A DNA stretch of 64,000 nt from Nitrospirota bacterium (lineage in GTDB: Bacteria; Nitrospirota; Thermodesulfovibrionia; Thermodesulfovibrionales; UBA6898), in assembly GCA_021811105.1 (NCBI GenBank), contig JAJZPM010000012.1:1-64000 (forward strand), read 5' to 3'. Shown here piece after piece: positions 38,816 to 46,428 of this stretch. Numbering within the stretch: the stretch's first letter is position 1; each line of letters opens with the position of its first letter. The notes beneath the pieces were generated by a model, which was not told the DNA's origin, searched no databases, and saw only the letters and a list, made by a program, of their open reading frames with translations. Made by a program: the position numbers and the translations under genes.

Positions 38816-39970
38816 TTACTCTGAAAAAATTACCGGCTTAATGTTCTCTTTTTTGCCGATCTGGACTGCCATTTCACGGGATTTCCCCCTGTCTTCAAAC
38901 TTGCCCACCAGTACCCGATATATGACACCCTTGCCTTTGACGTCGCTCTTCAGGGTAAATGCATCATACCCTTTTTCTTTCAGTTTCTTTGTGAGCGTTC
39001 CCGCATTTGTCTCGTTCCTGAAGACCCCGACCTGGACAGAGTAGACCAACTTGCCCGAGGGTTTTTTCGCTGGGGCCTTTGCTGCAGGCGCTGGTGCCGA
39101 AGATGAGGCAACACCGGCTTTTCCGGGGGGGGCAGGGACAGCAACCGGGGCAGAGGCTGTCTTTTCCTCTGCAACTGGCTGCTTTGCCGGTTCAGCAACG
39201 GGTGAAGCTTCGGGCTTTTCAGGCTTCTCGACCGTTCTGGGCGGCGCCGCCGGAATCTTTGTCTGAAGGCCGGTCCCAGGTATCAGCCCGCTGTAATACA
39301 GAGCTCCCGCCACACCGACGACTATCACTAATACCGCAAGGAGCGCCACCAGCGCTTTCCTGCTCTTTCTTCCCCCGGCGGTCTCTTCTTCAGGGATGTA
39401 GGATTCGGCAGGCTCCTCCCGCTCCTCTTGAGGGCTCTTAAGGACTTCTTCGCCCTCTTCTTCCATGTCCGCTATTTCCGACAAGTCCGACAGACGGGAC
39501 TTCGAAGAGACCTCTTCTTGAAGCCCAGGGGATGGCGATCCAGGAGCAGGCATTTTGTCTTCCCTGAACTCGGGGGCTTTCTCCCTGACACGAAGCACAA
39601 CAGGGGACTTGACGTTGATCGCCTTTTCGGTCTTTTCGAGGAGTTCGGCCGCGCTGACCGGCATTGACAGAGAATCGACTACGCCGAAGGAACTGGGGTC
39701 AGTTCCTCCTGGGCCGGAGGCGAGCAAAATAATCGGCACGGTCTTCAGCGACTCATAGCTGCGTATCGTCCTGCAGACCTCCATGCCCTTCTCGCTTGTA
39801 TCCTCGGGGTTCACGAAAATCAGCGAAGGCCTGACCTTCTGGGCCATCTCGGCGCCCACGTCACCTCCGGGAACTGCAAAAACGAGATAACCTTCGGTTT
39901 CCAGAGTAGACGCGATGAACTGTTCTGTTTCGCTATCGGCGTCGATTACGAGGACCGTCTTACTTGCCAT
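38816..39970 (-). CDS. Pseudo-receiver / single TM / periplasmic SPOR-domain protein
   Basis: 384 aa; N-terminal CheY-like 'TVLVIDADSETEQFIASTLETEGYLVFAV'; TM 'ALVALLAVLVIVVGVAGALYYSGLI'; SPOR 'YSVQVGVFRNETNAGTLTKKLKEKGYDAF...YRVLVGKFEDRGKSREMAVQI'. Confidence 0.88.
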   Translation of the reverse strand: MASKTVLVIDADSETEQFIASTLETEGYLVFAVPGGDVGAEMAQKVRPSLIFVNPEDTSEKGMEVCRTIRSYESLKTVPIILLASGPGGTDPSSFGVVDSLSMPVSAAELLEKTEKAINVKSPVVLRVREKAPEFREDKMPAPGSPSPGLQEEVSSKSRLSDLSEIADMEEEGEEVLKSPQEEREEPAESYIPEEETAGGRKSRKALVALLAVLVIVVGVAGALYYSGLIPGTGLQTKIPAAPPRTVEKPEKPEASPVAEPAKQPVAEEKTASAPVAVPAPPGKAGVASSSAPAPAAKAPAKKPSGKLVYSVQVGVFRNETNAGTLTKKLKEKGYDAFTLKSDVKGKGVIYRVLVGKFEDRGKSREMAVQIGKKENIKPVIFSE

Positions 39971-40006
39971 GATAAATCTCCCGTCTTCAGATGTAGTGAG
40001 AGAATC

Positions 40007-41035
40007 TCAAAGAGGTTCCCAGTATTTCGAGGGCATGTCCTGCGCGAGTTTTAGCGCGCCGTCGGAACCCGCAAATAGAGGGTCTTCGACGCACGACACC
40101 TTGCAGGGACCATATTCCTTCAGCGCATCCTGAAGGTGCTCGCGAAGCCCCCTGATAAGGCTGCCGCCTCCCGCCAGGACGATGTTGTTCTTTATCTTCA
40201 CCTGAAACTCAGGGTCGAATCGCGCGATCATCTCTGCAGTAGTTTCGGCAAGCGCCGGCAGGATACTTTCGCACGCGCGCCTTATCTCGTTCTTGATGTC
40301 GTGCATCACCGGCTTGCCGTCGACTGGGATTTCCACCCGTATCTCATCCGGCGTGTCCCGGACAAAGCTGTACTGCTCCTTGAACTGCCGGACCATATTT
40401 TTGTTGAACTTTGAATTCGGGTATTTCTCGCTGAGGTAACTGAAGAGCTGCTCGTCTATGTAATCGCCCGCCGTCAGGACAGTCTTCTGGTCCTCCTCCG
40501 ACGGTATTGACCCGTGCATAATACAGAAGTCCGCCGTGCCGGCGCCGATGTCGATCACCATCGAGTTATTCAGGAGGTTCATGCCGTACGCCACGGCAAA
40601 CGGCTCCGTCACGACCATCAGCGAATGTACGAACTCCGTCACGGCCTTCCGTATCGCCAGCTTGTTCACCTTCAGCGTGTCGGCGGGAACACCGACGACC
40701 GCGTGTATCTTCTGTCCCGATGCAGGACCGGCAAGTTCGATCAGGTGCCTGATGATCTCCTTCACCGCCTCGTCGTTCCTGCTGATGCCTTCCTTGATTA
40801 CGCCGTGTTCCAGAGGCCGGCAGATGTCGAGTGAAAGCCTGTTCTGGAGCGCCTCGGAGCCGAACAGCACCGGCTTGCCGACCACCTGAAGCGCAATAAA
40901 ATCCTTCGGCCAGCCGACGAAACTCTCTATCCATTCCCTCTTGCCGTTGCCCGCCGAGATCGAACTCCTCGACGTCCCGAGGTCGATACCGACAAACAAT
41001 ACATCATCTTTTTTCCGCGTATCTGTCTGCGCCAT
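40007..41035 (-). CDS. Actin-like ATPase, MamK-like
   Basis: 'VGIDLGTSRSSISAGNGKREWIESFVGWPKDFIALQVVGKPVLFGSEAL', 'MVIDIGAGTADFCIMHGSIPSEEDQ', 'NIVLAGGGSLIRGL', C-terminus 'KLAQDMPSKYWEPL'; ATG at 41035 preceded by AAGGAG. Confidence 0.85.
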   Translation of the reverse strand: MAQTDTRKKDDVLFVGIDLGTSRSSISAGNGKREWIESFVGWPKDFIALQVVGKPVLFGSEALQNRLSLDICRPLEHGVIKEGISRNDEAVKEIIRHLIELAGPASGQKIHAVVGVPADTLKVNKLAIRKAVTEFVHSLMVVTEPFAVAYGMNLLNNSMVIDIGAGTADFCIMHGSIPSEEDQKTVLTAGDYIDEQLFSYLSEKYPNSKFNKNMVRQFKEQYSFVRDTPDEIRVEIPVDGKPVMHDIKNEIRRACESILPALAETTAEMIARFDPEFQVKIKNNIVLAGGGSLIRGLREHLQDALKEYGPCKVSCVEDPLFAGSDGALKLAQDMPSKYWEPL

Positions 41036-42062
41036 AGCCTGCTTCTCCTTTATTGATATAGTCCAATATCCCCGCTTCGAGGTCATGCGCGATATTTTCC
41101 CTGTGCGCCTCGGTATTGAGCTGCTTCTCTTCCTGCCTGTTGCTGAGGCATGACACCTCTGCAAGAACGGCCGGCACTTCGGCGCCGAGGAGCACAACAA
41201 AAGGCGCCCGCTTTACCCCGAAGTTGTAGGCATTTCCGTTTTCCTTTTCCATATTTACAAAAAGGTTCTTCTGTATGGAATAGGCAAGTTCCCTCGATTC
41301 CTGGAGTTTGAGTTTCTGACCGAGCTTCTCGATGATCTCCTTGAATTCACCGAGGCCGTATTGGGAACCGGCGTTTTCCTGTTCGGCGAGCTCCTGCGTC
41401 TTGCTGTCAGCGGATGGGCCGAAATAATATGTCTCGATGATATTGATCGGCTTCGAAGGAAGATAATTTAGATGTATCGAGACGAAGAGGTCGGCCTTTG
41501 CCTCCCGGGCAAGTTCGACCCGCTTATTGAGGGGCAGCGTGACGTCTTCGCTCCGTGTCATGACAACATGGAAACGTCCGTACTTGTCGAGACGGGACTT
41601 GAGACGTTTTGCAATATCGAGGGCGATGTCCTTCTCCGCGGTTCCCATCTTCCCCCTTGTCCCCGAATCCACACCGCCATGGCCCGCATCGATCATGATC
41701 GTCTTGACTCCCAAACCGAAGGTGCGGCTCACCGACACGTCCGCATTGGTGATAAAGGCCTTAAAATCCGAGGGGTTCGGCAATTCAGCGGACGAAGGGA
41801 GCGGACGCATCACTGTTCCCCCCGCTGTCTGCTTTTCAGCAAGCAAGGGGGCATCCAGATAATTACCCCCCGCCAGGACAACTATCGCCGCAATACATAA
41901 TATCAGTAAGAGCCTGTTCGGAGAGAACGTCCGCTGTCTCAAAAGGGCGCCCTTTTTCTTGCCGATTATCCGCAGATTCTCTTCGTAGATCCCTTTCAGG
42001 ATCTCCTGGCGAACCTTCAGCTCTTTTTTCCTGAAAAAAGCGGAAATCATAATAGTATGCAC
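41004..42062 (-). CDS. Membrane-anchored N-acetylmuramoyl-L-alanine amidase (Amidase_3)
   Basis: 352 aa; N-terminal basic cytosolic segment then TM; 'IMIDAGHGGVDSGTRGKMGTAEKDIALDIAKRLKSRL', 'DLFVSIHLNYLPS', 'AEVSCLSNRQEEKQL'; GTG at 42062 or ATG at 42050. Confidence 0.92.
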   Translation of the reverse strand: MHTIMISAFFRKKELKVRQEILKGIYEENLRIIGKKKGALLRQRTFSPNRLLLILCIAAIVVLAGGNYLDAPLLAEKQTAGGTVMRPLPSSAELPNPSDFKAFITNADVSVSRTFGLGVKTIMIDAGHGGVDSGTRGKMGTAEKDIALDIAKRLKSRLDKYGRFHVVMTRSEDVTLPLNKRVELAREAKADLFVSIHLNYLPSKPINIIETYYFGPSADSKTQELAEQENAGSQYGLGEFKEIIEKLGQKLKLQESRELAYSIQKNLFVNMEKENGNAYNFGVKRAPFVVLLGAEVPAVLAEVSCLSNRQEEKQLNTEAHRENIAHDLEAGILDYINKGEAGYGADRYAEKR

Positions 42063-45912: not shown

Positions 45913-46428
45913 CGCAGCAGAGCTGCGAGGTATCTATTATTGAATCTGAAAATGTTAATCGAACAAACCGAGTTGATCACGATGTATTTGTTGATATTGC
46001 CTTCCCTGGCTTTTGACATAATTCGCTATCGCAGCTTCATTGCCGTAACGACCAACGGTGTTGACGTAGTATCCGCTTGTCCAAAGATGTCCGCCCCAAA
46101 GTATTTTCTTGACCTCGGGATGTCTCTTGAGTATTTCTTTTCCCGTAATGCTTTTTATCGATTGCACTATATCCTTGGGACTTTTCACTGGCACACTTTG
46201 AACCAAAAAAATGCACATGATCTTCATCTACCCCAATTTCTACAAAATGTATCTCGTACCTTTCTCCTATTCCTATGCACACTTCTTTCAAACTCTCAGA
46301 GACAACTTCCGTAAATACTTTCCGCCTGTATTTTGCAGGACATACAATGTGGTATAGCAAAAGATTTTTGTTATGTCTTTTGTGTATATGCTCACTCACA
46401 CACCATTATACCCCGATGCAAAGCATCG
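45913..46428 (-). mobile_element. tnpA: IS200/IS605-like element with single Y1 tnpA, frameshifted
   Basis: Two overlapping frames: 'MSEHIHKRHNKNLLLYHIVCPAKYRRKVFTEVV...FVEIGVDEDHVHF' (46399 start) and 'VQSVPVKSPKDIVQSIKSITGKEILKRHPEVKKILWGGHLWTSGYYVNTVGRYGNEAAIANYVKSQG' (ends 45955); terminal hairpins CGCAGC-AGA-GCTGCG (45913-45927) and CGATGC-AAA-GCATCG (46414-46428). Confidence 0.88.

Follow-up and report, generated by a model that had tools for sequence, protein, structure and literature searches.

The stretch of Nitrospirota DNA analysed here (64,000 nucleotides, hereafter the window) encodes a MamK-family actin and, in an overlapping reading frame, a membrane-anchored N-acetylmuramoyl-L-alanine amidase. 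On balance, we consider it probable that the locus represents the form taken in Nitrospirota by a widespread module, in which a non-magnetosome actin of the MamK family is joined by an overlapping, bitopic and probably autoinhibited amidase that docks via a conserved cytosolic helix. The core of the module is the two-gene amidase-actin unit. The features of the locus are:

41004..42062, minus strand: gene for the membrane-anchored amidase (Amidase_3), 352 aa, Pfam Amidase_3 7e-44; GTG start codon at 42062, alternative ATG at 42050
41967..42014, minus strand: candidate peptide for docking on the actin, a conserved amidase helix on the cytosolic side with the sequence VRQEILKGIYEENLRI
41856..41912, minus strand: transmembrane (TM) segment of the amidase, hydropathy maximum at residue 51, N terminus cytosolic
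41067..41699, minus strand: catalytic domain of the Amidase_3 type, with a regulatory insertion as in AmiA/B/C; codon of the invariant Glu (Glu229) at 41376-41378
41004..41035, minus strand: overlap of the amidase and actin frames, 32 bp, from sequence
40007..41035, minus strand: gene for the 342-aa MamK-family actin of the amidase-linked clade A, start codon ATG
39971-40006: gap between the actin gene and the third gene, 36 bp
38816..39970, minus strand: third gene, pseudo-receiver (REC)-TM-SPOR protein, 384 aa, a Nitrospirota-specific accessory
38828..39043, minus strand: SPOR domain of the third protein, residues 310-381, PF05036 2.7e-13

The three minus-strand genes described in a first-pass annotation of this DNA, their order, the overlap and the gap were all reproduced from the sequence, and the identities given there (Amidase_3, MamK-like actin, pseudo-receiver-TM-SPOR) were confirmed by profiles and structure matches. 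Independent promoters would have spoken against a joint unit; no promoter-like site was found between the three genes on their own strand. Elsewhere in the window, what look by eye like pieces of an apparently frameshifted IS200/IS605 TnpA transposase lie beside glycosyltransferase genes (46037-46399).

The distribution of the pair was surveyed with a profile of same-order actins, without use of the amidase, against one genome per species of GTDB. This yielded 148 loci, 80 of which were kept. In 80 of 80 loci with upstream sequence, the window counted, the gene immediately preceding that of the actin encodes the amidase; locus L081, starting at a contig edge, was excluded from this count. The two frames overlap in 76 of the 80, most frequently by 32 bp. 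By NCBI phylum, with individual labels possibly wrong as many of the loci are metagenome bins, 33 belong to Nitrospirota, 26 to Thermodesulfobacteriota, 5 to Pseudomonadota, 4 to Myxococcota, 2 to Acidobacteriota and 1 to Rokuibacteriota, with 9 unassigned, including Aminicenantes. Carriage by Desulfobacterota was confirmed by named strains, e.g. NaphS2 and Desulfosarcina cetonica. Judged by these sequences, the amidase-actin pair is present in at least five phyla of non-magnetic bacteria, and since it is conserved in every usable locus across at least six named phylum-level groups, the adjacency is not due to chance. The same arrangement occurred in all 29 orthologue loci fetched from same-order relatives (L004-L032), in which the glycosyltransferase neighbours of the module are mostly limited to single genera. 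Two actin-amidase pairs (L065 and L202) come from genomes labelled Desulfobacterota, with an actin 80-83% identical to that of the Nitrospirota window; they represent either recent inter-phylum transfer or mis-binned contigs.

Among 399 Nitrospirota genomes, MamK-family actins fell into two groups with 63-100% and 41-47% identity to the query. Members of the latter (group B) mostly reside in clusters with genes for MamB/M-type cation transporters, MamQ/LemA, PDZ, protease and TPR proteins, and an amidase was next to none of the 16 group-B loci. In an IQ-TREE phylogeny of 83 rows, 45 amidase-linked actins (clade A) were split off by one branch with an SH-aLRT value of 100; the FastTree value for the clade was 0.83. 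Clade A is sister to the gene-cluster (magnetosome) MamK of Nitrospirota and Desulfobacterota, with AMB-1 MamK outside both. An independent sample of 327 genomes drawn with the MamK profile gave the same pattern: the amidase adjoins 8 of 8 clade-A actins and 0 of 20 other MamK-family actins, namely 0 of 11 magnetosome-type MamKs, 0 of 7 presumed Bbp-like actins, and 0 of 2 actins of genome G624. The neighbourhood survey that the first-pass annotation had proposed thus extends the adjacency beyond this genome, and within clade A the amidase-actin coupling is near-universal.

The AlphaFold2 (AF2) model of the amidase best matches AmiA and AmiC (AmiA 8c2o, E 5.9e-19, Foldseek), and the zinc-binding and catalytic H, E, H and E are invariant in 63/63 amidases. 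Equally invariant (63/63) is a Glu that aligns with Glu167 of AmiA, the autoinhibition latch on the blocking helix of that enzyme (PMC10268282); the module amidase is probably autoinhibited as well. It carries a single TM segment (residues ~51-69) behind a cytosolic N-terminus of ~50 residues, and no AMIN domain was matched. Fold, zinc ligands and latch Glu are thus shared with AmiA/AmiB/AmiC, which act with FtsEX-EnvC or NlpD. In contrast, these amidases are exported periplasmic enzymes that have an AMIN domain or signal peptide and no cytosolic part, whereas the module amidase is TM-anchored and exposes a helix to the cytosol; where they have known activators, it has an actin partner instead. 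The module was not found to encode an activator of the LytM type. The genome itself encodes two further Amidase_3 paralogues, one of them AmiC-like.

The N-terminus had previously been described as short, basic and cytosolic. Its net charge is about +5 between motif and TM in 73 orthologues, and it contains a conserved helix that had been overlooked. Its consensus IL[RK]G[VI]YE[ED]NL, most commonly ILRGVYEENL, occurs in nearly all amidases with an intact start, at a median of 22 residues ahead of the TM segment. Because it precedes the TM segment with the positive charge in between, the helix is cytosolic. Modal identity reaches 0.75 over the helix core; the catalytic domain has 0.67, the TM segment 0.32 and the linker 0.29. 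AF2 predicted a helix at residues 2-27 with a pLDDT of ~89 over the motif. Neither of the genome's two amidase paralogues has the motif, and a degenerate DNA pattern of it has a single match in this genome, within the amidase gene. In relatives, the off-target pattern matches inspected for other motif-bearing clients were short or unrelated frames. A helix kept so strictly in an otherwise free N-terminus calls for a cytosolic partner. As the actin is always encoded with it, we infer that the actin is this partner, and most likely the helix binds to it as a filament or as a monomer, although the motif might have some other protein of the cytosol as its target. Docking on the actin is also favoured by a similar terminal motif in unrelated proteins encoded next to other MamK-family actins (see below).

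In the mechanism that we propose alongside the observed conservation, clade specificity, motif, topology and intact catalytic and latch residues, the helix would dock the amidase on an actin filament or monomer. The actin cytoskeleton would thereby cluster and position the amidase in the periplasm and might contribute to its activation; autoinhibition would be lifted locally, either through contact with the filament or by another activator. In many Nitrospirota, the SPOR protein may in addition bind the denuded glycan left by the amidase and report to the cytosolic side, like FtsN with FtsA. Amidases are dangerous enzymes, and cytosolic control of where and when they cut is a central question of cell division, for which FtsEX-EnvC is the known route. 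In this module, overlapping genes, and probably a conserved helix too, tie an actin to one particular amidase in several phyla, whose carriers are largely known from metagenomes only. This suggests that the pair is an unrecognised cytoskeleton for the control of wall cutting.

The first-pass annotation had proposed a full loop of three parts, in which SPOR senses the glycan denuded by the amidase and the actin is positioned by the pseudo-receiver. Profile and structure analysis agree with the domain layout of the third protein. Besides the SPOR domain, Pfam gave a Response_reg match (7.8e-6, under the Pfam cut-off); a single TM segment is located at ~206-224, and AF2 yielded confident REC and SPOR domains with low-confidence linkers between them. 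At position 54, 20/20 orthologues have N, K, S, R or E, never Asp. As the phospho-acceptor Asp is absent from all of them, the earlier label of pseudo-receiver is justified. The gene follows the actin gene in the 26 Nitrospirota loci that carry it, here after 36 bp. SPOR domains bind glycan denuded by amidases (PMC6895207), and FtsN sets a precedent, combining a SPOR domain with a cytosolic part that contacts the actin relative FtsA (PMC8998562). A likeness to FtsN-FtsA, and to RgsS-AmiC of S. meliloti (PMC7822825), exists in the cytosolic part, the TM segment and the SPOR domain, which would bind amidase-denuded glycan, and possibly in a link to an actin relative. However, the cytosolic part is a pseudo-receiver and the actin belongs to the MamK family rather than being FtsA; with 24.5 bits against a cut-off of 107.65, the protein falls outside the FtsN family profile. 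The 26 loci with the REC-TM-SPOR gene are all among the 33 from Nitrospirota, compared to 0 of 47 other loci, and in several Nitrospirota genera the gene is replaced or missing; SPOR feedback is for this reason not the general mechanism, and the protein is, as judged by its distribution, a lineage-specific Nitrospirota layer. The amidase motif was not found in the REC-SPOR protein as a common docking site, so nothing in its sequence ties it to the actin. Of the proposed loop, the amidase-actin coupling is conserved while the third component is limited to one phylum, and we regard the full loop as doubtful. In L032 (and L087), an apparent receiver-PilZ protein, assigned by eye, follows the actin in place of REC-TM-SPOR.

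Alternatively, the amidase might be the membrane anchor of the filament rather than its client, the actin requiring a wall-gripping bitopic partner for shape, curvature or polarity, with cutting being secondary. The architecture of helix and TM segment would fit an anchor, and other MamK-family actins have motif-bearing partners that are not enzymes. These partners, unrelated to the amidase, were revealed by running the motif profile over open reading frames near group-B MamKs; 753 control frames reached a maximum of 8.9 bits. The best match (14.0 bits) was the C-terminus of a CheW-like protein in L127, whose gene immediately precedes that of a MamK-family actin. The N-terminus of long MamQ followed with 12.8 bits and displays the same order of motif, basic stretch and TM, while a small coiled-coil protein adjoining MamK scored up to 11.4 bits at its C-terminus. 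Family means were 38.6 bits for the amidase, 11.7 for long MamQ, 3.4 for the coiled-coil protein and at most 1.4 for all others among the 34 families, and the likeness between the amidase motif and the coiled-coil C-terminus is modest. A regular expression, composed after both the amidase and the coiled-coil family were known, gave 6 matches in 54,141 residues of the independent sample, all C-terminal in a gene beside MamK, and one non-amidase match in the control set. Since the expression postdates knowledge of both families, the test shows the coiled-coil motif to be constant, and does no more than suggest that it is the same motif as the amidase helix. Among Desulfobacterota MamK neighbours outside the magnetosome gene cluster (MGC) type, no convincing motif partner was found. 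Still, an anchor would not need catalytic and latch residues that are invariant throughout, and we consider the reading as an anchor unlikely.

Tentatively, a terminal helix of the form phi-L-[KR]-x-phi-phi-x-x-N-phi-x-phi may be a general docking peptide of the MamK family, with the amidase as cargo in non-magnetic bacteria and MamQ and the coiled-coil partner as cargo in magnetotactic ones, where it would place magnetosomes. If so, a single ancient cytoskeleton for tethering membranes would underlie both the positioning of magnetosomes and the remodelling of the wall, and cargo docking by MamK could be probed with a 15-residue peptide. In L127 (G189:C39; frames L127_8/L127_9), the coiled-coil CheW-like protein ends in the motif AILSELIKDNLLIKR directly upstream of the MamK-family actin, which lies outside any obvious magnetosome cluster; this may represent a chemotaxis-actin pair.

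Overlapping genes may adjoin for the timing of expression alone, and the amidase and actin might thus be co-transcribed for use at the same stage, e.g. division, without contact, the helix binding some other cytosolic partner. The constancy of pair, order and overlap across phyla while the flanks vary argues against co-transcription alone, as does the helix, which tracks the actin and has similar counterparts beside other MamK-family actins. We therefore judge such an arrangement to be quite improbable, and docking of the amidase on the actin remains our preferred reading.

The actin is assigned to the MamK family by profile and by fold, with MamK 5jyg as best PDB match (6.5e-89), and the Nitrospirota/Desulfobacterota cluster MamKs are its nearest clade; it differs from them in belonging to a separate, amidase-paired clade that lacks a magnetosome gene cluster. 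A third MreB was considered and rejected: two MreBs are encoded elsewhere in the genome, and the tree separates them from this actin. That it is a true or relic magnetosome MamK of an organism that is or was magnetotactic is highly improbable, since, although it clears the NCBIfam MamK cut-off of 400 by 10 bits (410 bits), it falls outside the magnetosome MamK clade, no mam genes occur near the module, an MGC marker protein is missing here and in six other genomes with the module but occurs in 5/5 MGC genomes, and group-B MamKs form a separate clade, mostly in mam/mad-type clusters and never with an amidase. A present magnetosome function was accordingly rejected as largely refuted by marker absence and gene context; a relic origin is still conceivable. 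A Magnetochrome Pfam search of the genome was uninformative, its control having given no match. The 400-bit cut-off of NF040964 (MamK) admits amidase-linked actins of non-magnetosome genomes, so that automatic annotation will call clade-A actins MamK. Genes that NCBI would name 'MamK' are hence often not magnetosome genes, which affects surveys calling genomes magnetotactic.

Steering of a wall hydrolase by an actin homologue has a parallel in MreBH-LytE and Mbl-FtsEX-CwlO of Bacillus. These systems involve other actin and hydrolase families, and have neither an overlapping gene pair nor a bitopic hydrolase with a docking helix. A literature search, with subscription papers and preprints outside its range, found no report joining MamK with SPOR domains or N-acetylmuramoyl-L-alanine amidase, and none that describes the pair. 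The nearest published case is Bbp ('big bacteria protein'), a MamK-like actin of bacteria without magnetosomes whose published cluster comprises the actin, a hypothetical and a Kelch-like protein and no amidase (PMC10580974). The candidates L207-L213, assigned as Bbp only by inference, form another clade without an amidase neighbour; identity of clade A with Bbp, a comparison that depends on these assignments, was not supported. The module offers a lead on the role of MamK's sister clade and on the way in which filaments of the MamK type keep hold of membrane cargo, and a clue to the tasks of such actins other than magnetosomes. Some Desulfobacterota (L142, L143, L147, L148 and L154) encode two MamK-family actins close together, with no amidase neighbour, and in a further Desulfobacterota branch of the family (L149-L151, L153) the actin gene is located beside genes for long coiled-coil proteins, one of them with a TM segment.
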